Positions 16,994 through 36,202 of a stretch of DNA of 64,000 nucleotides are shown piece by piece. The DNA comes from Opitutales bacterium (GTDB taxonomy: Bacteria; Verrucomicrobiota; Verrucomicrobiia; Opitutales; Opitutaceae), in NCBI GenBank assembly GCA_018700525.1, contig JABITN010000136.1, forward strand, positions 62,001-126,000, read 5' to 3'. The first letter of the stretch is position 1. Every line of letters starts with the position of its first letter. Made by a program: the position numbers and the translations under genes. Below the pieces are notes generated by a model. It worked only from the letters and a program-made list of their open reading frames with translations. It searched no databases and was not told the DNA's origin.

Positions 16994-19900
16994 ATGCCCA
17001 ACACTCTTTCCGACCTGAAATCCATTCGCTTGCGCGGAGTCCGCCAAAACAATCTCAAGAACATCGACGTCGACATTCCCCTCGGCAAATACATCGCAGT
17101 CACGGGGCTCAGCGGAGCAGGCAAATCCTCCCTTGTCTTCGAGACCTTGCATGCGGAGGGACAACGTCGTTACGTTGAGACGTTCAGCGCCTACACGCGA
17201 CAGTTTCTCGACTTACTCAAAAAGCCCGATCTCGACGAAGCGGAAAACGTACGCCCATCCATCGCGATCGAACAGAAAAACACGATCAAGACCTCTCGCT
17301 CGACCGTTGGTACCATGACCGAACTCACCGACTTCTTCAAAGTCTGGTTCAGTCACGTTTCCACTTTATTCGACCCAGCCACCGGAAAACCAATACAGGA
17401 CGATAACCCCAAAACTATCTGGTTACGTTGCCTCAAACACTGGTCCGCCTATACCGTCATTGTTGCATTCGAAATCAAACGCCCCGAAAAGCTCAACTGG
17501 CCCGAGATCCTCAAGAACGTCCAAGCCCAAGGTTACTCACGCTTCATCGACACCAAAGGCAAAGCCCAACGCGTCGACGACGATGCTGCCATTAAGTCGA
17601 TTTCCAAAAAGACCGATGCCGCCATTTTCGTCGTCCAAGATCGAATACCCCTAGAATCTCGAAATAAAAGTCGATTCCTAGAAGCCGCCGAAACCGCTCT
17701 TGAATTCGGCCAAGGCCAAATCGCCTTGCTAAATGCCGACGGTGGTTTCCTAGAAAAATTCTCTAACGGACTTCACTCCCCCGAGACCGGCCGTAAATTC
17801 CGACGAGCCATCCCAGCTCTATTTTCATTCAACTCCCCCATTGGAGCTTGTCCCGAATGCCGTGGATTCGGACGCGTTATCGAAATCGACTATCGCCTCG
17901 CGATTCCGGATGCCAATGCCTCTATCAGCGACGGACTCATTCGCCCCTTCGAAGGAAACGTTTACGGCGAAAGTAAAAAGGACCTCGAACGTGCCTGTAA
18001 ACGCCTCAAGATTTCCACCAAGGTTCCTTTCAGCGAACTTCCCAAGGCACAGCAAGACATCGTCATCAACGGCGAAAAATCCTACCAAACGAAAAACAAA
18101 GATGAGGACTGGGACGGTAAAGCCTGGTACGGCGTCAAAGGTTTCTTCAATTGGCTCGAAAAGAACACCTACAAGATGCACGTTCGCATCTTCCTCTCTC
18201 GCTACCGAGCCTACGTCAAATGCCCCCACTGCGAAGGCTCCCGACTCCAACCAGACTCCCTATGCTGGTCTTGGAATGGCTACCGGCTGCCTGATCTTTA
18301 CGAACTCCCGGTAGGCGAGCTTTTCAAGCTCATTGAAACCTGTAAAACGGATACAAACAAATCGACCCTATCCTCGCGCCAAACAAACATCGCAATCGAT
18401 TCGATCCTCTCCCGACTGCGCTACCTCAATCACGTCGGCCTTGGCTACCTGACTCTCAATCGACCAGCCCGTACCCTAAGCGGGGGTGAAGTCGAACGCG
18501 TCACTCTCACCTCATGCCTCGGCACTTCTCTCGTCGACACGCTTTTCGTCCTAGACGAGCCTTCCGTCGGACTTCACGCCCGAGACATCGATCGCCTCAT
18601 CCAGATCGTACGAACGCTCACCGAGGCAGGCAATACCGTCGTCCTCGTAGAACATGACGACGCTATGATCCAAGCGGCCGATCACATACTAGAGATTGGC
18701 CCCGAACCAGGAGCGAACGGTGGCCACATTGTTTTCCAAGGTACTCAAACCGAACTGCTCGCGAGTTCCGAGAGCATCACTGGCCGCTATTTCTCAGGCG
18801 AACTCACTCTCGACGCGCCCGAAAAGACGCGTCCTTTCAATCTAGCAAGCCGCAGCAAAACCAATCCCCGACTCCGCCTCAAAGGCACTACCAAGCACAA
18901 TATCCAAAACCTCGATATTGATATCCCCCTATCACGGTTCGTCTGCCTCAGCGGCGTATCCGGATCCGGAAAGAGCACCCTGCTTAACAACGCCCTCTAC
19001 CAAAACCTACTCACCCAACGCGGAAGACTCGGCAACGACCCAGCCGTCGTAAAGACGCTCAAAAGCAGCATCGATTTCAGCGAAATCGTCATGGTCGACC
19101 AATCGCCAGTAAGCCGCACCCCGCGCTCCAATCCAGCCGTGTACGTGAGTGCATGGGATGAAGTTCGAAAGATTTTCGGAAAACTCCCCGAAGCCGAGTC
19201 CCAAGGCTACACCCCCTCCAGTTTCTCTTTCAACGCCGGCGACGGACGCTGCGACCAATGCAAAGGCCTGGGATATGAAAAGGTGGAGATGCAGTTTCTC
19301 AGCGACGTCTACGTCCCCTGCCCCCACTGCGACGCCAAGCGTTTCAAACGCGACCTCCTAAAGATTGCATTCCTAAACCACTCAATCTCCGACATCCTCG
19401 AACTCACAATTGCCCAAGCCCTTAGCCTCTTCCGAGAGTACCCAAGAATCCACGACAAATTGATAGCCCTCGATCAAGTCGGCCTCGGCTACCTAAAAAT
19501 GGGCCAACCCCTAAACACACTCTCCGGCGGCGAATCCCAACGCCTAAAGCTCGTCAAATACCTCTCCGTCAACAAAAAGCCCACATCCCCTTCATCCCTC
19601 AACGCTCATCCTGCATCCTTAATCCTGCTAGACGAGCCCACAACCGGACTCCACAAACATGACGTCAAACGTCTACTCGAAGTCCTGCAAGACATCGTCG
19701 ACCAAGGACACAGCCTAATCGTCATCGAGCACAACCTAGACGTCCTCAAAAGCGCCGATTGGATAATCGAACTAGGCCCCGATGCCGGAAGCGACGGAGG
19801 AAAACTCGTCTTCCAAGGCACCCCTTCCGACTGCGCAAACCAAGCCACCACCGAAACGGGAAAGTATCTGAATAAGGATGAAGGCGGAAGGATGAAGGAT

Positions 19901-22717
19901 GAAAAGAAAACCTCGAAGTCAAAGGGGCGAAAGAAAGAACTCGAACTCCTAGCAGCCGAACCCAGCGCCCCCTACGGCCAACCCCCTTCATCCCTCAACC
20001 TTCATCCTTCATCCTTAACAATAACCGGTGCCCGCCAGCACAATCTCAAAGACGTCACCGTATCCATCCCTCACTACCAACTAACCGTAGTCACTGGTGT
20101 TTCGGGATCCGGCAAAAGCACCCTCGCATTTGATATCGTCTTCGGAGAAGGACAACGACGCTTCATGGAGTCCATGTCGCCCTACGCCCGCCAATTCGTA
20201 GAGCAACTCGCTCGCCCCGACCTCGACCAGATCTCAGGTATCCAACCGACAGTCGTCATCGAACAGCGCATCACCCGAGGCAGTCGCAAATCAACCGTCG
20301 CTACGATTACCGAAGTCGCTCAGTATTTGCGCCTTCTTTATTCTCGTCTAGGCATTCCCCATAATCCGAATACAGGAAATCCATTCCTAGCTCAATCAGA
20401 AGATCAACTACTCAAAAGGCTTCGCGAAACCCTTGGCAAACGAAACGCGAAACAATCCAAACAACTCCTCCTTTGCGCCCCGCTCGTCCGTGACAGAAAA
20501 GGCCACCACCAGCCGATCGCCAATTGGATCGCCAATCACGGCTACGAAATGATGCGCGTCGACGGGGAAATAATCTTAACCGAAGATTTCGAGAAACTGG
20601 ATCGCTACAAGGAGCACAACATCGAAGCCGTAATCGCCGATCTGTGCTCCCTCAAAGACTCTCCCGCCAAAATCGCTTCCGCTCAAAAAGAAGCCCTTCA
20701 ACGAGGCAAAGGCACCGCTCTATTGGTCGACAACCAAGGCGCCATCGTCACCTGGCTTTCCACCTCGCGAATGGATGCCTCCACCGGCGATGCTCTGCCA
20801 GAACTCGACCCCAAGGATTTTTCCTTCAATTCCCACAAGGGATGGTGCCCGTCCTGTCGCGGACACGGACGTATCTATCCATGGATGCGTGAACAACTGG
20901 AAGAAGGGGAACTCCTCGCGAAATCAATCGGAGCCGACTCCGCTTCCGATGACGAATCCGACGAAGTAATCGTATGCCCCGATTGCGAAGGCCAGAGACT
21001 CAATGCGACTAGCCGCAACGTATTTCTACCCCTCAAAGGCAAAACGAAAATTTCGCTTCCGCAACTACTCCATCTAAACCCCAAAGATCTCCTCTCAACT
21101 CTGGAGAACTTGAAACTGGATAAACGAGGACAAGTCATCGCCCGCGACATAGTCGACCAAATCCGCGAACGCCTCCAGTTCATGGGGAAAGTCGGTCTCG
21201 AGTACCTTTCCCTCGATCGCCCCACCCAAACGCTTTCAGGCGGCGAAGCCCAACGCATCCGCCTTTCCGCTCAACTGGGTTCTAACTTGGCTGGCGTTCT
21301 CTACGTACTCGACGAACCGAGCATCGGCCTTCATGCCCGCGACAGCGACCGCCTAATCGAGACGCTTAAAGAACTGCGCGAAAAAGGAAACACCCTACTC
21401 GTCGTCGAACACGACGATGCCATGATGGAGCAAGCCGACTGCATCATCGACCTCGGTCCAGGAGCCGGAACTCGAGGAGGCGAACTCATCGCCAAAGGCA
21501 CCTTAAGCGAACTTAAACGTAACCAAAATTCCCTCACAGGAAAATATCTAAAGAAAGGAATCGTTCACCCGCTAAACGAAAGCTACCGTTCCATCCCCAA
21601 ACGAACAGCCCGCAATTCGAAATCCGCAATCAGTAATTCGCAATCCAATTGGATAGAGCTCTCGAAAGTAACGTTTCGCAATCTGAAGAATCAAACCATT
21701 CGAATTCCGCACGAACGCCTCATCATGGTCTGTGGCGCATCCGGAGCGGGAAAGTCCTCGCTCGTTCGAGACTTGCTCGGCCATGCAGCTGCCTACTCCA
21801 TCAAGGCAAAAAAGAAAACCGTTACAGGCAAAGCCTTCGCCAAAAACGGAAAATCTATCGAAGGCGAAGAAGGCAAGGCGCTTTTCGAATCGCTCACCGG
21901 AGTTCATGCATTTCGCTCAGTGATAGAAGTCGACCAATCCCCAATCGGCAAAACTCCGCGCTCCACGCCCGCTACCTATCTTGGCGTATTCGATATCATC
22001 CGACAATTTTTCGCCAATCTGCCAGAGTCCAAAATGCGCGGATACAAACCAGGGCGCTTTTCATTCAACACGCCGCACGGGCGATGTCCGACGTGTTCAG
22101 GTGCCGGTCAGGTCAAGCTCGAGATGAGCTTCATGCCTGACACCTATGTCGTCTGCGAAGACTGTAATGGCTCACGCTATAGTGCCGAGCTCATGGACTT
22201 ACACTGGAAGGGCAAGAACATCGCCGACGTCCTAGCGATGACTTTCTACGAAGCAGCGGAGTTCTTCAGTTTCCATAGCCAACTTGGAGACATTATGCAG
22301 CTCATGGTCGAAACTGGCCTCGACTACCTAACACTCGGTCAAAGCAGTCCCACCTTGTCAGGCGGCGAAGCCCAACGCATGAAGCTCGTCACCGAACTAG
22401 CCAAAGGCTTGCAAAGCTACACCGAACGAAGCCGAGGCATCCAACGCACCAATCTCTACATACTCGAAGAACCCACAATCGGCCTCCATCTCAGCGATTG
22501 CGAAAAGCTAATACACCTACTCCACAAACTCGTCGCTCATAGCCACACCGTCATCGTCATAGAGCATCACCTCGACCTCCTCGCCGAAGCCGACTACATC
22601 GTAGAGATCGGCCCCGACGGCGGCCCTAAAGGCGGAAAGATCCTCTACCAAGGAAACCTAGCCGGCCTCCAAAAATCCAAACGCAGCATCACCGCCGACT
22701 ATCTGAAAGGACGTTAA
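16994..22717 (+). CDS. uvrA: Double-length excinuclease ABC subunit A (tandem UvrA)
   Basis: 1907 residues, twice the usual 940 or so, made of two complete UvrA modules in tandem. Four Walker A motifs are near residues 38 (GLSGAGKSS), 653 (GVSGSGKST), 1035 (GVSGSGKST) and 1581 (GASGAGKSS). LSGGE signatures with Walker B lie near 495/520, 843/878, 1414/1438 and 1788/1824. Four CxxC zinc-module pairs (for example [17 protein letters not shown]) are also present. UvrA recognises bulky DNA lesions with UvrB in nucleotide excision repair. Chlamydial UvrA is similarly doubled, so one chain may replace the normal dimer. The fourth Walker B is LEEP, not LDEP. Repeat-like insertions lie in the linkers. 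No frameshift seen. Confidence 0.96.
19588..19626. repeat. TTCATCC-type repeat segment inside uvrA ATPase site 2
   Basis: CCTTCATCCCTCAACGCTCA then TCCTGCATCCTTAAT, translated as [11 protein letters not shown] just before Walker B (ILLDEP). It is nearly the same sequence as 19985-20017 in the same gene. In typical UvrA this position is a short variable loop. Confidence 0.65.
19875..20017. repeat. Inverted-repeat insertion in the uvrA inter-module linker
   Basis: The left end, 19875-19905, is made of GGATGAAGG-type units. The right end, 19985-20017, is made of CCTTCATCC units, its inverted counterpart. The 143-base segment is in frame and adds a charged linker of about 48 residues between UvrA modules 1 and 2. 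This looks like an intergenic repeat or small MITE-like element that entered the gene without breaking it. Confidence 0.6.
21612..21650. repeat. ATTCGCAATCC-type repeat inside uvrA
   Basis: GCAATTCGAAATCCGCAATC then AGTAATTCGCAATCCAA: alternating ATTCG(C/A)AATCC units. Translated [12 protein letters not shown] between ATPase sites 3 and 4 (about residue 1540). This is the style of dispersed repeat I associate with intergenic DNA in PVC genomes, from memory. Confidence 0.55.
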
Positions 22718-26757: not shown

Positions 26758-29700
26758 ATGATCAACAAACTCATACGCTTCTGTCTCGAGAACAAAATAG
26801 TCGTCGTTCTCTTTACCGCTGCTTTGATTCTTTGGGGAATCATGGTCGCTCCATTCGATTGGGAGGTCGACATCCTCCCGCGCGATCCCGTACCCGTAGA
26901 CGCAATTCCGGATATCGGCGAAAACCAGCAAATCGTATTCACGAAATGGATGGGGAGGTCTCCTCAGGATATCGAAGATCAGATAACCTACCCACTCACT
27001 ACCGCTCTACTCGGACTGCCGCAGGTTAAAACGATTCGCAGCTACTCGATGTTCGGGTTTTCGTCCATCTACATAATCTTCAAAGAAGATGTAGAGTTCT
27101 ACTGGACGCGCAGCCGTATTCTGGAAAAACTCAACAGTCTCCCAAGCGGGACGTTGCCGCAAGGCGTATCTCCCCAGCTCGGACCCGACGCTACTGCCTT
27201 AGGCCAAGTATTCTGGTACACTCTCGAAGGTTACACGCCCGAGGATAAGCCTTCAGGCGGATGGGACCTCGACGAATTGCGTTCAGCTCAAGACTGGTAC
27301 GTTCGCTATGCGCTTCAAGGAGTTGACGGCGTGGCCGAGGTAGCGTCGATTGGCGGATACGTCAAAGAATATCAAGTCGATGTCGATCCCTATGCATTAA
27401 GGACCTACGGCATAGCCCTGCATGAAGTCTTCGATGCCGTGCGAGCAAGCAACATAGATGTCGGTGCTCGGACGATAGAAATAAACGCCGTCGAATATAT
27501 TATCCGTGGCCTGGGGTTCTTGAAATCCTTGGATGACTTGAGGCAAACCGTTATAACGCATCGCGACAACGTACCCATAACATTGGATCAAATCGCTGAG
27601 ATTGAATTCGGTCCAGCTTTGCGACGTGGAGCCCTTGATAAAGCTGGAGCTGAAGCCGTAGGTGGTGTCGTCGTAACGCGCTACGGAGAAAACCCGCTTG
27701 CAGTCATCAAGCGCATTAAACAAAAGATCGAGGAAATCTCCCCAGGCCTCCCTCGCAAGACACTGGAAGACGGGACTAAAAGTCAGTTGAAGATCGTACC
27801 TTTCTACGATCGAACAGGACTCATAAACGAAACTCTCGGCACGCTTGAAAGCGCGGTGCGTCAGCAAATTCTCGTAACCATCATCGTTGTCGTAGCAATG
27901 ATGCTTCACCTGCGGAGTGCAGCCATAATCTCAGGTGTCTTACCCTTGGCCGTTCTCTTCGCATTCATAGGCATGAAGCTTTTCAAGATCGATGCCAATG
28001 TAGTAGCTCTTTCTGGCATCGCGATCGCCATCGGTACGATCGTAGACATGGGAGTTGTATTGGTTGAAAACATACTCCGTCACCTCAACGACGCGCCGCG
28101 AAAAGAAGATCGACTAGAAGTCGTTTACCGAGCCTGCTCTGAAGTCGGAGGCGCAGTGGTGACTGCCGTTCTCACAACAGTCATCAGCTTCCTTCCAGTA
28201 TTCACGATGCAAGCCGCTGAAGGAAAGCTCTTCCAGCCGCTTGCCTACACAAAGACCTTCGCCCTCATCGGCTCCATCATTGTCGCTCTCACTATAATCC
28301 CGCCACTTGCTCACTCGCTTATAGCAAAGCGATTCACCTTCGCCTGGTCGAAAACCGGACTGTGGAGCGGCATCGCATTATTCGGTCTACTAGGACCCTT
28401 TTTCACCGATTGGTTTCCTGGGTGGCTCGGCTTAATCCTCGTTGGAGCAGCTGTCTTCAATCTCGCTGAAAGACGCATTCCTTCTCATACGCGCAGGCTC
28501 GTCTTCCTCCTCTTTAACTTCCTAGTCGCCTTCTTCGTGGCCCTCGTCCTAGCTGCCGACTGGAAGCCTCTAGGGATCGAACGTGATTTCGGGAATGCCC
28601 TATTCGTACTTATCGCTATTGGAGGCCTACTTGGAGCATTCTATTTATTTATCAAAACCTACGCCACGTTGCTCAACGCGATTCTTAAGGTCAAATGGAT
28701 CTTCCTCTCCTTTAGCAGTTTTATCGTCGTATTCGGATTTGCCGTATGGCTCGGGTTTGGGACGCTTTTCTCCTGGGCTCCGAAGTGGATAACGAAATCC
28801 GGAACCTGGAGCAGCATATCCCATGCTATTCCAGGACTAGGCAAGGAATTCATGCCGAATTTGGACGAGGGGTCCTACTTGCTCATGCCCACAACCATGC
28901 CTCATGCTTCTATTGGCGAAGCAATGGACATCCTTAGCAAGCAAGATATGGCGATCAATGCCATACCGGAAATTGAAACCGCCGTTGGCAAACTTGGACG
29001 CGTCGAAAGTCCGCTTGACCCCGCTCCGATCTCGATGATCGAAACGATCATAAACTACAAATCCGAATACATCACAAACGCCAATGGACAAATACTCGCC
29101 TTCTCCTACGACGCCGTATCCGGCACCTTCCAACGAGACCCCAATAACGAACTCATACCTGACGAAAACGGAAGACCTTTTCGACAATGGCGCGACGAGA
29201 TAAAGTCTCCCGATGACATTTGGGCCGAAATCGTTAAAGCAGCCGCGATCCCCGGTTCAACTTCCGCTCCTAAACTCCAACCAATAGCCGCTCGAATCAT
29301 CATGCTTCAAAGCGGCGTTCGAGCGCCCATGGCCTACAAGATTCAAGGTCCTAACCTCGAATCGATCGAACAAGCTTCCCTCGATCTCGAGAAACTGCTC
29401 AAGCAAGTGCCTTCGATCAATCCAGGAACCGTCTTTGCCGACCGAGTGATCGGCAAGCCCTACCTCGAAATAGACATCGATCGATCCGCCATAGCTCGCT
29501 ACGGCATCAAGATCAGGCAAGTCCAGGAAGTCATCGAAGTCGCGATCGGAGGCAAGCCAGTCACCCAAACCGTCGAAGGGCGTGAACGCTATCCCGTGCG
29601 CGTTCGCTATTCGCGAGAACTGAGAGACAGTATCGAAGAAATCGAAAACATACTCGTCAGCGCTCCGGACGGAACGCAAATCCCACTAAAAGAGCTAGCA

Positions 29701-30516
29701 TCCATAAAATACCTACGCGGACCGCAAGTCATCAAAAGTGAGAATACATTCCTGGTGAGTTACGTCATTTTCGATATGCAGCCGGGATACAGCGAAGTCG
29801 AAGTGGTCGAACAAGCCAATACCTTCATCGACGGTAAATTAGAGAACGGAGAATGGTCCCTCCCCGCAGGGGTCTCGAAACCCATAGCAATTGGCAGCTA
29901 CGAAAGTCAGGTCAGAGCGGAAAAGAGACTCAGCGTCGTCTTGCCGATCGCACTCTTCGCAATCTGGCTGATTCTCTATTTTCAATTCAAGCGCATCTCC
30001 ACGACATTTTTGGTTTTCTCCGGCATTCTTTTCGCCTGGTCAGGCGGTTTCACCCTCATCTGGCTCTATGGCCAACCGTGGTTCATGAATTTCGAGTTCA
30101 TGGACCAAAACCTCGGAGAACTCTTTCAGATGGGGACGATCAATCTCAGCGTCGCAGTTTGGGTCGGTTTTCTTGCCCTTTTCGGCATAGCCACCGACAA
30201 CGGCGTAATCGTCTGCACCTATCTCCAACAGGTATTCAAGAAAAACAAACCGAAGACCATATCGGAAATCCGAGCGGCGACTGTAGAAGCAGGGAAACGA
30301 AGGGCCCGCCCCGCCATGATGACCAGCGCCACAACAATTCTTGCCCTCCTGCCCGTCCTCACCGCGACCGGTCGCGGGGCCGACGTCATGTTGCCAATGG
30401 CGATACCCTCATTCGGAGGCATGCTCCTCGCGATCCTCACCATTTTTATTGTTCCCGTCCTTTACTGCAGTCTCGAAGAACTTTCAGTAAAACTCAGGAA
30501 ATATAGAAAATCTTAA
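26758..30516 (+). CDS. cusA: CusA/CzcA-family heavy-metal RND pump
   Basis: 1252 residues, about 200 longer than E. coli CusA. The N-terminus is LIRFCLENKIVVVLFTAALI, and the DQITYPLTTALLGLPQVKTI region is characteristic of heavy-metal RND pumps. The TM4 proton-relay helix GIAIAIGTIVDMGVVLVENI holds the conserved Asp. The Met-containing GKEFMPNLDEGSYLLMPTTM matches the copper-path region. An extra hydrophobic stretch of about 110 residues (roughly 525-640) with several predicted helices follows TM6, and a further soluble insertion occurs near 760-820. It exports Cu(I)/Ag(I) using the proton gradient. Third gene of the operon. Confidence 0.93.
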   Translation: MINKLIRFCLENKIVVVLFTAALILWGIMVAPFDWEVDILPRDPVPVDAIPDIGENQQIVFTKWMGRSPQDIEDQITYPLTTALLGLPQVKTIRSYSMFGFSSIYIIFKEDVEFYWTRSRILEKLNSLPSGTLPQGVSPQLGPDATALGQVFWYTLEGYTPEDKPSGGWDLDELRSAQDWYVRYALQGVDGVAEVASIGGYVKEYQVDVDPYALRTYGIALHEVFDAVRASNIDVGARTIEINAVEYIIRGLGFLKSLDDLRQTVITHRDNVPITLDQIAEIEFGPALRRGALDKAGAEAVGGVVVTRYGENPLAVIKRIKQKIEEISPGLPRKTLEDGTKSQLKIVPFYDRTGLINETLGTLESAVRQQILVTIIVVVAMMLHLRSAAIISGVLPLAVLFAFIGMKLFKIDANVVALSGIAIAIGTIVDMGVVLVENILRHLNDAPRKEDRLEVVYRACSEVGGAVVTAVLTTVISFLPVFTMQAAEGKLFQPLAYTKTFALIGSIIVALTIIPPLAHSLIAKRFTFAWSKTGLWSGIALFGLLGPFFTDWFPGWLGLILVGAAVFNLAERRIPSHTRRLVFLLFNFLVAFFVALVLAADWKPLGIERDFGNALFVLIAIGGLLGAFYLFIKTYATLLNAILKVKWIFLSFSSFIVVFGFAVWLGFGTLFSWAPKWITKSGTWSSISHAIPGLGKEFMPNLDEGSYLLMPTTMPHASIGEAMDILSKQDMAINAIPEIETAVGKLGRVESPLDPAPISMIETIINYKSEYITNANGQILAFSYDAVSGTFQRDPNNELIPDENGRPFRQWRDEIKSPDDIWAEIVKAAAIPGSTSAPKLQPIAARIIMLQSGVRAPMAYKIQGPNLESIEQASLDLEKLLKQVPSINPGTVFADRVIGKPYLEIDIDRSAIARYGIKIRQVQEVIEVAIGGKPVTQTVEGRERYPVRVRYSRELRDSIEEIENILVSAPDGTQIPLKELASIKYLRGPQVIKSENTFLVSYVIFDMQPGYSEVEVVEQANTFIDGKLENGEWSLPAGVSKPIAIGSYESQVRAEKRLSVVLPIALFAIWLILYFQFKRISTTFLVFSGILFAWSGGFTLIWLYGQPWFMNFEFMDQNLGELFQMGTINLSVAVWVGFLALFGIATDNGVIVCTYLQQVFKKNKPKTISEIRAATVEAGKRRARPAMMTSATTILALLPVLTATGRGADVMLPMAIPSFGGMLLAILTIFIVPVLYCSLEELSVKLRKYRKS

Positions 30517-31243: not shown

Positions 31244-32473
31244 ATGGAAGACCACTCCGATTCACCAACCAAAGATTGTTGCCACCATAATGGAGACGTA
31301 TCGGCTAAACGCGAAAACGCCTCGCTGGTATGGGCAAATTACGATTGTACTATGTGCCCAGGCACGGAATCGAACACGCCTGGCGGTTGTCCTTATTATC
31401 GCGCCCCTGCACCCTGGGACTCGCGACACCCATGTCCATTATGGTGGGAATCGGCAAAGGTGCTGAGCATGGAATTCTCATTCGAGATGCAGAAGCTATC
31501 GAGACGATGGAAAAATAACCCATCTCATAAATGACAAAACCGGTACATTGACTGAAGGGCATCCCCAAGTTGTTGATATATTTAAAGCCACTGGTATCGA
31601 TAATTTCAAGCTACTCCAATTAGTCGCCGCCATTGGGAGACATTCTGAACACCCGCTCGCAAGAGCCATAGTCAAAGAATCCGAAAAGCGTGAAATCGAG
31701 ATTCCAGAGAACACTGACTTCGAAAGCTACCCTGAAGCAGGAGCGCAAGCCGACGTTCTTGGGGAAACGATCAGAGTGGGGAAAAGAGCATATCTACAAA
31801 ACAATGGAATCGCCCTCCGCAAAGAACTTCTAAACCAGGCACAGGACCTACAGAAACAAGGGAAAACGGTCACCTGGGTCACAGAGGGCAAAGTATTACT
31901 CGGTGCCATAGCCATTGCCGATCCGATTAAATCTACCACGCCCGATGCGATCGCGACACTGCATCGAATCGGAATAAAAATCATTATGTGTACAGGCGAC
32001 AATTCCGATACCGCTCGAGCGGTATCGAGTACCCTCAGCATCCAAGACTATCGGGCAGCAAAGACAAACAGGACCTTGTCGAAGATCTCAAAAGCCAAGG
32101 ACACCGCGTCGCAATGGCATGCGACGGGATTAACAACGTGCCAGCGCTCGCCGCTGCCGATCTAGGAATCGCAATGGGTACCGGAACCGATGTAGCCATG
32201 GAAAGCACTGGGATCACCCTCGTCAAAGGCGACCTTCAAGGAATCTTTAGTTCCATCGCACTCAGTAAAGCGGTCATGCGAAACATTCGCCAAAATCTAT
32301 TCTTCGCTTTCTTTTACAATGCCATCGGCGTTCCAATAGCTGCAGAAATACTGTATCCGTTTTTTGGAATCCTTCTCAGTCCAATGATAGCTGGAATAAC
32401 CATGTCGTTTAGCTCCGTATCCGCCATTTGCAACGCATTGAGACTAAAAAATGAAAAAATTAAAACCCAATGA
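31244..32473 (+). pseudogene. Copper P-type ATPase (CopA-like), internally deleted and frameshifted
   Basis: Pieces of a P1B ATPase lie in order across frames: an N-terminal Cys motif (YDCTMCPGTESNTPGGCP) like a heavy-metal-binding domain; then, directly, PCTLGLATPMSIMVG (the CPC helix, first Cys now Arg) and GAEHGILIRDAEAIETMEK; then INDKTGTLTEG with the phosphorylated Asp in another frame; the nucleotide domain (HSEHPLARA) to [11 protein letters not shown]; and, in a third frame, [20 protein letters not shown] to the C-terminal helices. The first five membrane helices and actuator domain are missing, so the protein could not transport even if the frames were repaired. Confidence 0.85.
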
Positions 32474-33968: not shown

Positions 33969-35396
33969 TCAAATCTTCCGGAACGATACGCCCGTAGCAA
34001 CCAAAGCCATGCCGACCGTATTCGCGCGCTCAACCAATTGCACCTCTCGCTGCAAGTCGATTCCAGGGTGAACCAACACGCTAACCCCAGCTGCTTTCGC
34101 GCGGTCAATTTCTTCAGGATCTTTGATATCCACGTCGAAAACCACACTCGACCCTTCAATCGATACCCCTCCTTGCAGCAGCCGATCCCAAGCCAATCTT
34201 TGATCAAGTAAACTCGAAGCCTGGGCGATCACGCACTCTCCCGCGATAGCGACGCAGCCCGTCGAACGGAGATGCCTCGATAACCTTACCCCAAAGAGCA
34301 TATCCTCCCATTGAGTGACCAAAGGCTGATTAGCACTCGGCATTCGCCATGCAAAAGGATTCACCGCCACCCGATTTATATCCTGAACCAATGCGCCGCC
34401 CGCCACCGAACGGACTTCCTGCAAGGCTTCGTAACCCAAACCTTCGCGACTGACCAAAAGCCGCGTACCATCAAACTCCACTTTCGAAACATACGCCGGC
34501 GCCAAGACTGAACTGAAGTGACCCTGCCCGCCAAGCGAACCCAGCAAATCCGAATCGACCGTACCATTTACCACCAGAGTAGCCTTCGAAAGAATCGGCT
34601 CGATAGCTCTTCGAGCGGTGTCAACCGCCTCTTCGACGGATTCCCCGCTAGCCGCGGAAATCAAAGCACCGTTTTGAATAATCACCGCTGTCGTCTTCTC
34701 GAATTCTCCAATCGCGTACACCGCCAGCGATAAATCGATAACACTGCCGTAATCGAGTTCCGGACCGGAGATTTTTTCGAAATGCTCCCCAAAATTCCCA
34801 TAGAGCGCCGCCTTCTGCCGCGGCGTATCTCCTTCCGGTAATGCGTGAGCTCGTTTCCAAGAAAATCGAATCGACTTCGGGTATCCGCTCAAGGCATCGA
34901 TATCCGGAGCTTCGCCTCCCTGCATCTCCAGGTATTGGGCCACTGACGCATCGAATTCGGAAACCGCATGTAACGCATTGCAGGCCTGATCCATTCGAAA
35001 TCGACCCGACAAACTTCCATCGCCTTTGCGCAGCAAATTCAAAACATCGCCATACATCTCCGGACTCCCAACTACGGCCGTCTTCTGAGGTCGACGAGCC
35101 GCCAGGCGAATCAAATCGACGATTCCATGATCAAATGCATTCAAAGCGCTCTTCCACGACATGAACTCACGCCCCACGGCCGAAACGTCATAGAAATTAG
35201 CCACGAGCAAATCCACCTCGCCCGACTCAACCAGCCCTACAGCGACCGGTATCTCAATACTATCCGCACCAGAAATCTCATCACCCACGACCGAAGTCAC
35301 CACTCGAAGCTCCACGCCGAATTCCTCGACCAAGCATTTCGAAAAGTCTTTCAGTCCGGAAGAATCCCGAGTCGCCAGCAGTGCGGTTTTTGCCAT
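33969..35396 (-). CDS. PurH-like protein with apparently lost active sites
   Basis: 475 residues from the ATG at 35396. It is collinear with PurH (IMP cyclohydrolase/AICAR transformylase): start ALLATRDSSGLKDFSKCL, VDLLVANFYDVSAVG, AVVGSPEMYGDVLNLL, TPRQKAALYGNFGEHFE, ELDYGSVIDL, and the end VSVLVHPGIDL...MALVATGVSFRKI. But the RVKTLHP cyclohydrolase segment is absent, and the Lys-His pair of the transformylase motif KHxNPCG is replaced (AVIIQNGALIS). It is probably a paralogue with a new or structural role, or a catalytically dead protein; the reading frame is clean. Transcribed convergently with idi; no other purine gene is nearby. Confidence 0.75.
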   Translation of the reverse strand: MAKTALLATRDSSGLKDFSKCLVEEFGVELRVVTSVVGDEISGADSIEIPVAVGLVESGEVDLLVANFYDVSAVGREFMSWKSALNAFDHGIVDLIRLAARRPQKTAVVGSPEMYGDVLNLLRKGDGSLSGRFRMDQACNALHAVSEFDASVAQYLEMQGGEAPDIDALSGYPKSIRFSWKRAHALPEGDTPRQKAALYGNFGEHFEKISGPELDYGSVIDLSLAVYAIGEFEKTTAVIIQNGALISAASGESVEEAVDTARRAIEPILSKATLVVNGTVDSDLLGSLGGQGHFSSVLAPAYVSKVEFDGTRLLVSREGLGYEALQEVRSVAGGALVQDINRVAVNPFAWRMPSANQPLVTQWEDMLFGVRLSRHLRSTGCVAIAGECVIAQASSLLDQRLAWDRLLQGGVSIEGSSVVFDVDIKDPEEIDRAKAAGVSVLVHPGIDLQREVQLVERANTVGMALVATGVSFRKI

Positions 35397-35809: not shown

Positions 35810-36202
35810 ATGAACGCAGAATCACATCTCCTTGAAGGCCTAAGCGTCACTTTAGATCAACTAAAGTATCACTATGGAGGCCCCAATACACCGCAAGAAA
35901 CGCCGCACGTATTCGTCTACTACATTACCATAGTCAACCACTCCGATCGCCGTGTTAAGCTGCTCGGACGCAAATGGATTATTTCATCGAAGGACGGCCA
36001 AAAACTCGTTATCGAAGGCGTCAAGATTGTCGGCGAAGAGCCTGACCTCGCTCCCGGAGAATCGTTCTCCTATAACAGTTGCCACGTATCCGCAGCCGAT
36101 ACTTCCGCCACAGGTAGCTTTCACGGATTCGACGAAAACCGCAATCGAATCCACACCTTGATTCCAAGATTCGCCATGCGAATCCCGGATCTATCAAGCT
36201 AA
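35810..36202 (+). CDS. apaG: ApaG family protein
   Basis: 130 residues, normal length. The FN3-like ApaG/DUF525 fold shows FVYYITIVNHSDRRVKLLGR, KWIISSKDGQ, the VKIVGEEPDLAPGESFSYNS turn and the GSFHGFDENRN strand. ApaG is cytoplasmic; its role in bacteria is unclear, with proposed links to Co2+ tolerance and pyrophosphate binding. Followed by a small basic protein gene and the heme genes. Confidence 0.92.
   Translation: MNAESHLLEGLSVTLDQLKYHYGGPNTPQETPHVFVYYITIVNHSDRRVKLLGRKWIISSKDGQKLVIEGVKIVGEEPDLAPGESFSYNSCHVSAADTSATGSFHGFDENRNRIHTLIPRFAMRIPDLSS

Follow-up and report, generated by a model that had tools for sequence, protein, structure and literature searches.

An enzyme whose reaction has been taken over by an unrelated one would be expected to disappear. 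Bifunctional PurH (ATIC) has a cyclohydrolase and a transformylase activity, which correspond to the last two steps of purine synthesis. Its fold has also been put to another use, since ForH is a PurH-like protein recruited as an enzyme for formycin synthesis. Combinations of PurH, PurP and PurO have been described in archaea (PMC3261824), and PurO-like genes have been reported in 22 of 1266 bacteria (PMC6797443). Pseudoenzymes are known (PMC10211241), and trypanosomatids have prozymes, which are dead paralogues of AdoMetDC and DHS (PMC5201418 and PMC3663545). Searches of the openly accessible literature (Pelagicoccus with purine, and PurH with pseudoenzyme) found, among the matches listed, no report of a displaced bifunctional PurH that has been kept as a pseudoenzyme. 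Here we describe a bacterial lineage in which, judging from sequence comparisons, the last two purine steps have likely been displaced and the old PurH retained under selection as a pseudoenzyme.

The window analysed is the whole stretch of 64,000 nucleotides from an Opitutales bacterium, and the features discussed below are collected in Table 1. At Rfam gathering scores the window shows a single tRNA, and no RNA element is recognised upstream of the degraded purH. The protein matches Pfam PF01808 with 103 bits (E 2e-29), above the gathering cut-off of 25. The PurH equivalog models TIGR00355 and NF002049 match residues 60-470, with scores of 128 bits (cut-off 528) and 140 bits (cut-off 402) that lie well under the cut-offs and do not place it with bifunctional PurH. 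A sequence search of the PDB gave five distinct sequences at E ≤0.001, all of them PurH/ATIC. In the source genome, PF02142 (MGS) gave no match to the degraded N-terminal domain. The structural model (pLDDT 81.7) keeps the two-domain fold of PurH, and PurH chains from the PDB top both structure lists, with a best Foldseek E of 1.6e-31. The VIA comparison with PurH gave Z 30-31 over 431-450 of the 475 residues, with an rmsd of about 14 Å; the placement of the domains is unsure, the pTM being 0.58. The score above the gathering cut-off and the shared fold place the protein in PF01808. Annotation by homology could name it PurH, overlooking the likely real enzymes.

Table 1. Positions in the window of the degraded purH, its altered and constrained segments, and its divergent neighbour
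Feature	Position	Strand	Details and basis
Degraded PurH (putative pseudoenzyme)	33969..35396	minus	ATG 35396, stop codon 33971-33969, 475 aa
Codons 59 and 60; the gap between them is the missing RVKTLHP block (~30-32 residues)	35217..35222	minus	alignment; exact edge alignment-dependent
Residues 141-180, a candidate contact segment: below the average rate in degraded PurH, above it in normal PurH	34857..34976	minus	site rates
Residues 241-242 (QN), in place of the transformylase Lys-His of KHxNPCG	34671..34676	minus	alignment
Residues 321-360 (YEALQExRSVxGGxLVQDxxRxxxNPxxW), another stretch in which constraint has newly concentrated	34317..34436	minus	site rates, conservation
apaG, divergent neighbour; also beside normal purH in two relatives	35810..36202	plus	gene maps

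The active sites were analysed in 17 degraded sequences (including that of genome G003, which is truncated by its contig end) and 29 normal PurH. In the cyclohydrolase domain, the Arg and Lys of RVKTLHP and the Lys of AAKNH are present in all of the normal sequences and absent from all of the degraded ones. In the transformylase domain, the Lys of KHxNPCG is absent from all 17 and the His from 16. Of the C-terminal motifs, GAGQMxRVD and RHF have disappeared and PGGSxRD has changed. In L013 numbering, Arg63, Lys65, Lys137, Arg223, Asn253, Asn254, Lys277, Asn419, Arg514 and Phe516 are lost in 17/17 and His278 in 16/17, and the substitutes vary among the degraded sequences. Following the PurH/ATIC literature, we take the lost residues to be catalytic residues or substrate contacts, and those that contact phosphate in PurH are presumably among them. 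Of the cyclohydrolase site, Asn102 and Asp125 remain in 17/17, and Tyr104 in 4/17. More broadly, 213 residues are conserved in at least 97% of the normal PurH, of which 81 are absent from every degraded sequence and 36 are retained in at least 90% of them. By sequence, the protein thus lacks the conserved catalytic motifs of its family, as a pseudoenzyme does. The same degradation is found across four genera with the frames intact (one row being ended by its contig), and is therefore not due to chance.

These results agree with much of the first-pass annotation of the window. The coordinates it gave for the gene hold, and the gene is on the minus strand, since the plus frame has stops. The collinearity with PurH that it noted is borne out, the 475-residue product being PurH by profile and fold. 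It was also right that RVKTLHP is missing, within a stretch of ~30-32 residues that all 17 relatives compared lack, and that the Lys-His of KHxNPCG has been replaced: the sequence here reads QNGALI, and the Lys has become Q, R or S in 17/17.

The source genome (4.8 Mb in 268 contigs, 96% complete) matches PF01808 in two places, the degraded purH and a gene on contig 114. The latter was considered as a second purH and rejected, because it encodes a stand-alone AICAR formyltransferase (AICARFT) of 389 residues, with 560 bits against NF005492 (cut-off 415) and an intact YKHVSPAG. Profile searches found no canonical bifunctional purH elsewhere in the genome. The motifs KH and YTQSNS are intact in all 13 of the AICARFT copies fetched (of 17). 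The genome also encodes a PF07826 (PurO-family) protein, with 134 bits against a cut-off of 28. The PF07826 protein of this clade is divergent: curated PurO models give 30-37 bits (cut-offs 150-158), and the matches to solved structures are weak (1kuu, E 0.009; the IMP cyclohydrolase 2ntk, E 0.012), so that we infer, rather than assign, its cyclohydrolase activity. As both genes are present, there is a candidate substitute for each of the activities lost from PurH. By eye, no purine genes were recognised beside the replacement genes in crude gene maps.

A profile made from ten degraded sequences was searched against 200 genomes of the family. It found degraded PurH in 17 of them, at 507-788 bits (the ten from which the profile was built, and seven new ones), the next best match being a normal PurH at 340 bits. 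The 17 genomes belong to genera g1 (7), g9 (1), g13 (1) and g20 (8). PF07826 is found in 21 of the 200 genomes and AICARFT, above the NF005492 cut-off, in 17. Within this sample all three proteins are confined to the same four genera, which include Pelagicoccus. The genomes with degraded PurH are mostly drafts; all 17 have PF07826 and 15 have AICARFT. Profile searches found no normal PurH in any of them, there being nothing in the PurH range beyond the degraded gene and AICARFT. AICARFT was not found in G003 (93% complete) or G005 (97% complete; 3.2 Mb, 20 contigs), both of which have degraded PurH and PF07826, and this is either an assembly gap or a missing step. PF07826 was found without degraded PurH in G002, G006, G008 and G086 of the 200 genomes, and in G004 of a sample of 57. 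In G004, G006, G008 and G086 the contig stops before the place of the degraded purH, and G002 is unplaceable, hemA not having been found in it. It may be added that in the drafts G003, G004, G006, G008 and G086 a contig ends within the degraded purH or a few kb short of it.

In a comparison of related loci, 12 of 19 proved to be degraded PurH. Named carriers include Pelagicoccus mobilis KCTC 13126, Pelagicoccus sp. SDUM812002 and SDUM812005, DG1235 and K14, and the copies from Pelagicoccus and DG1235 equal the g20 loci in score and sequence start. A fresh pseudogene or an artefact of metagenome assembly was considered and rejected, as the gene also occurs in these records, which are not labelled as MAGs (Pelagicoccus, DG1235, K14). 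An assembly artefact is further countered by the single-contig genomes G007 and G010, which both have the degraded purH. The SAICAR synthetase PurC (PF01259) is present in 17/17 genomes with degraded PurH, and an upstream purine step is therefore kept. PurC itself is of two kinds. In six of the seven g1 genomes PurC is long and divergent (118-125 bits), as at positions 8772-9515 of contig C167 in the source genome (L202), and the seventh, G001, has the ordinary PurC (237-255 bits) found in the other genera. A second purine gene thus seems to have been swapped within g1.

In a sample of 387 genomes from the phylum, PF07826 is found in 133, of which 128 lie outside the clade. Among the matches listed, these 128 have one PF01808 match in 124 cases, none in three and two in one (G445); the tally was made by eye from two tables. 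The strongest PF01808 match listed in these 128 genomes has an E of 1e-62, which is in the range of stand-alone AICARFT, with a few matches being fragments; normal PurH gives an E of about 1e-90 and stronger in this search. The split pathway is thus common in the phylum, but this clade alone was seen to retain an old PurH alongside it, among the matches listed and insofar as PF01808 can recognise it, since an old PurH that had decayed further would escape the search. The PF07826 proteins elsewhere in the phylum look archaeal-like, and have 22-29% identity to those of the clade where they could be aligned (6/20 loci matched). As a separate observation, many genomes without PF07826 (for example in families f42, f52 and f55) show two PF01808 matches with a best E of about 1e-60, perhaps reflecting an insertion in PurH or a split gene.

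Crude gene maps were drawn for ten degraded and nine normal purH loci (the map of L102 being without the purH ORF itself). An M20 peptidase gene lies at most three genes downstream in 8/10 degraded and 6/9 normal loci. The apaG gene is found at 5/10 degraded and 2/9 normal loci; in the window, as in two relatives with normal purH (G027 and G037), it directly adjoins the gene in divergent orientation. In the window and G003 the M20 gene is absent, and a NUDIX gene, taken for idi, faces the degraded purH. Because the M20 and apaG neighbours are common to the normal loci, the degraded gene can be identified as the orthologue of purH, still at its ancestral position. In a phylogenetic tree all 17 degraded sequences fall on one side of a branch with support of 100/100. 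The branches are very long and the root is a midpoint, so the tree is uninformative on the point of origin inside the Opitutales.

Several other features of these loci deserve mention. Genes resembling thiG and thiH (named by eye) adjoin the degraded purH, or lie toward its place, at six loci (L088, L089, L090, L092, L159 and L161) from several genomes of the clade, and at none of the nine normal loci mapped; AICAR has known links to thiamine synthesis. Elsewhere in the window, positions 31244-32473 hold what by eye is left of a metal P-type ATPase, its pieces lying in ORFs of different frames and including a Pfam HAD domain at 31548-32162. They adjoin an AcrB-type RND pump (26758-30516) and two DUF3347 proteins, and look like a decayed gene in a metal-efflux cluster. 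Positions 16994-22717 hold a single ORF of 1907 residues, which by eye resembles two UvrA proteins in tandem.

Selection on the degraded gene was analysed using pairs of sequences. None of the 17 frames, from four genera, has an internal stop (that of G003 being cut by its contig end), and the tips of the tree in the degraded group reach 1.8 changes per site. NG86 gave dN/dS of 0.065-0.144 in seven of eight pairs, the eighth not being computable: 0.085 for G000-G003 (G000 being the source genome), 0.137 for G010-G005 (dS 0.18, unsaturated) and 0.065-0.144 for five pairs from the Pelagicoccus group. YN00 gave 0.08-0.20 for three of the eight pairs. These ratios are rough, because most dS values are near or over 1. 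The corresponding values are 0.021-0.047 for AICARFT (6 pairs), 0.041-0.170 for PF07826 (7 pairs) and 0.023-0.124 for normal PurH (6 pairs), this last range overlapping that of the degraded gene. The gene does evolve several times faster than AICARFT and normal PurH, the identity in six pairs being 68-78% for degraded PurH and 94-99% for AICARFT. Such speed is what would be expected of a relic without function that is slowly decaying. However, the lack of internal stops over such distances, dN/dS values like those of normal PurH, and the existence of segments that are relatively more constrained than in normal PurH make this extremely unlikely. The gene is thus kept by selection, the other mark of a pseudoenzyme.

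The view of the first-pass annotation, that the intact frame is under selection and is not a fresh pseudogene, is therefore upheld. It had proposed a dead paralogue: the lost sites, open frames and dN/dS favour a dead enzyme under selection, whereas the paralogue part is not supported, because this is the orthologue of purH at its ancestral position and profile searches revealed no bifunctional PurH in the rest of the genome. It had also considered that the absence of any other PurH, together with purine prototrophy, would count against a dead enzyme. Profile searches indeed found no other PurH, and the objection is answered by the stand-alone AICARFT and the PF07826 protein.

Site rates were calculated from 16 degraded sequences (G003 being left out on account of the contig-end cut) and 29 normal ones. 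The rates in the two groups are weakly correlated (Spearman 0.13, p 0.003, 472 columns). Relative to normal PurH, blocks 141-160 and 161-180 have rate ratios of 0.32 and 0.20, with block 121-140 leaning the same way (0.40), and blocks 321-340 and 341-360 have ratios of 0.49 and 0.33. Blocks 41-60, 261-280 and the four blocks from 381 to 460 are faster, with ratios of 2.3-2.9. Block 241-260, from which the Lys-His has gone, evolves no faster than its counterpart in normal PurH (0.92), and the remaining blocks have ratios of 0.85-1.51. The number of circular shifts that were as extreme, of 471, was 4 for residues 141-180, 20 for 321-360, 6 for 381-460, 23 for 41-60 and 54 for 261-280, these counts being descriptive only because the blocks were picked after seeing the ratios.

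It could be argued that the protein is still a purine-synthesis enzyme, whose catalytic residues have migrated, and that the PF07826 and PRK07106 proteins do other things. Pseudoenzymes with migrated residues are mentioned in PMC10211241, and Asn102, Asp125 and the fold have been kept. Against this, the pocket residues listed above are gone with varied replacements, blocks 41-60, 261-280 and 381-460 are 2.3-2.9 times faster relative to normal PurH, and the AICARFT motifs are intact. This makes the proposal very improbable, and the alternative in the first-pass annotation, that the enzyme uses other residues, is thus unlikely.

The degraded group has 18 conserved residues of its own, including S80, W81, K82, Y322 and W350, and the N-terminal half of the model matches ForH (6nko) with Z 18.8 and 2.5 Å over 156 residues. 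Both would suit a protein recruited, like ForH, to catalysis or ligand binding in a process other than purine synthesis. This is a rather improbable explanation, given that by eye the new residues form no obvious catalytic set, that the gene maps revealed no conserved biosynthetic neighbours at the degraded loci, and that the residues that contact phosphate in PurH have been lost. As for the model itself, its confidence in the monomer is low at residues 163-166, 175-182 and 330-341. We rejected this as a sign of a special interface, since a control with normal PurH (the same 18 sequences) is also uncertain at the corresponding segments 212-217 and 371-384. As modelled, such segments would fit an ordering that occurs only between subunits across the whole family, which is not special to degraded PurH.

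On the basis of these observations, we consider it likely that PurH has been displaced and kept. The purH gene would have been inherited vertically in the Pelagicoccus-type lineage of the Opitutales, and this lineage would have gained a stand-alone folate-dependent AICARFT and a PF07826 protein. Neither of the catalytic activities of PurH would then have been needed any longer, and both would have been lost, with AICARFT and the PF07826 protein presumably carrying out the two steps, and PurH being kept as a folded non-catalytic protein. Its retained role, as a scaffold or regulator, may depend on contacts made by residues of about 140-180 and 320-360, in a homodimer or with a partner. That degraded PurH acts through protein contacts seems to us about evenly balanced between true and false. 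The data would fit a scaffold formed by a homodimer, a partner of the enzymes that succeeded it, or an association with an unrelated partner. One specific version is that it binds AICARFT, the PF07826 protein or both, setting their activity or channelling FAICAR, and hence that a displaced enzyme regulates or scaffolds its own replacements. We regard this as unlikely: among the matches listed, 124 other PF07826 genomes show one AICARFT-like gene and no former PurH, the former PurH drifts faster than AICARFT, and two genomes have it without a detectable AICARFT.

The interest of the case is that culturable bacteria seem to have retained a housekeeping enzyme over about 1-2 changes per site, although both of its steps had apparently passed to other proteins. 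It separates the catalytic role of PurH from any non-catalytic one, and the shift in site rates points to segments that may carry a second role. Should this hidden role also exist in normal PurH, it can be tested in these bacteria.

Among known systems, the protein is closest to bifunctional PurH / ATIC (TIGR00355, NF002049; 3zzm, 4a1o, 1pkx), with which it shares the fold, collinearity over residues 60-470 and the chromosomal place of purH in relatives. It differs in having neither active site, in the deletion of ~30-32 residues of the cyclohydrolase domain and in scoring far under the cut-offs. ForH (6nko) likewise puts the PurH cyclohydrolase fold to another use, but it is an enzyme and matches the N-terminal half only, whereas degraded PurH keeps both halves and loses the pocket residues. 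Prozymes resemble it in being dead relatives of a metabolic enzyme that persist together with an active one catalysing that step. They are, however, paralogues bound to the active enzyme, whereas in the present case, known from sequence, it is the original protein that is dead, and the working AICARFT is only remotely homologous to it. Finally, in the split purine ending (PurH1 or PurP with PurO; PMC3261824 and PMC6797443), PurH is likewise replaced by a separate AICARFT and PurO. In that arrangement, 127 of the 128 other PF07826 genomes of the phylum have at most one PF01808 match, among the matches listed, whereas here the former PurH has been retained.
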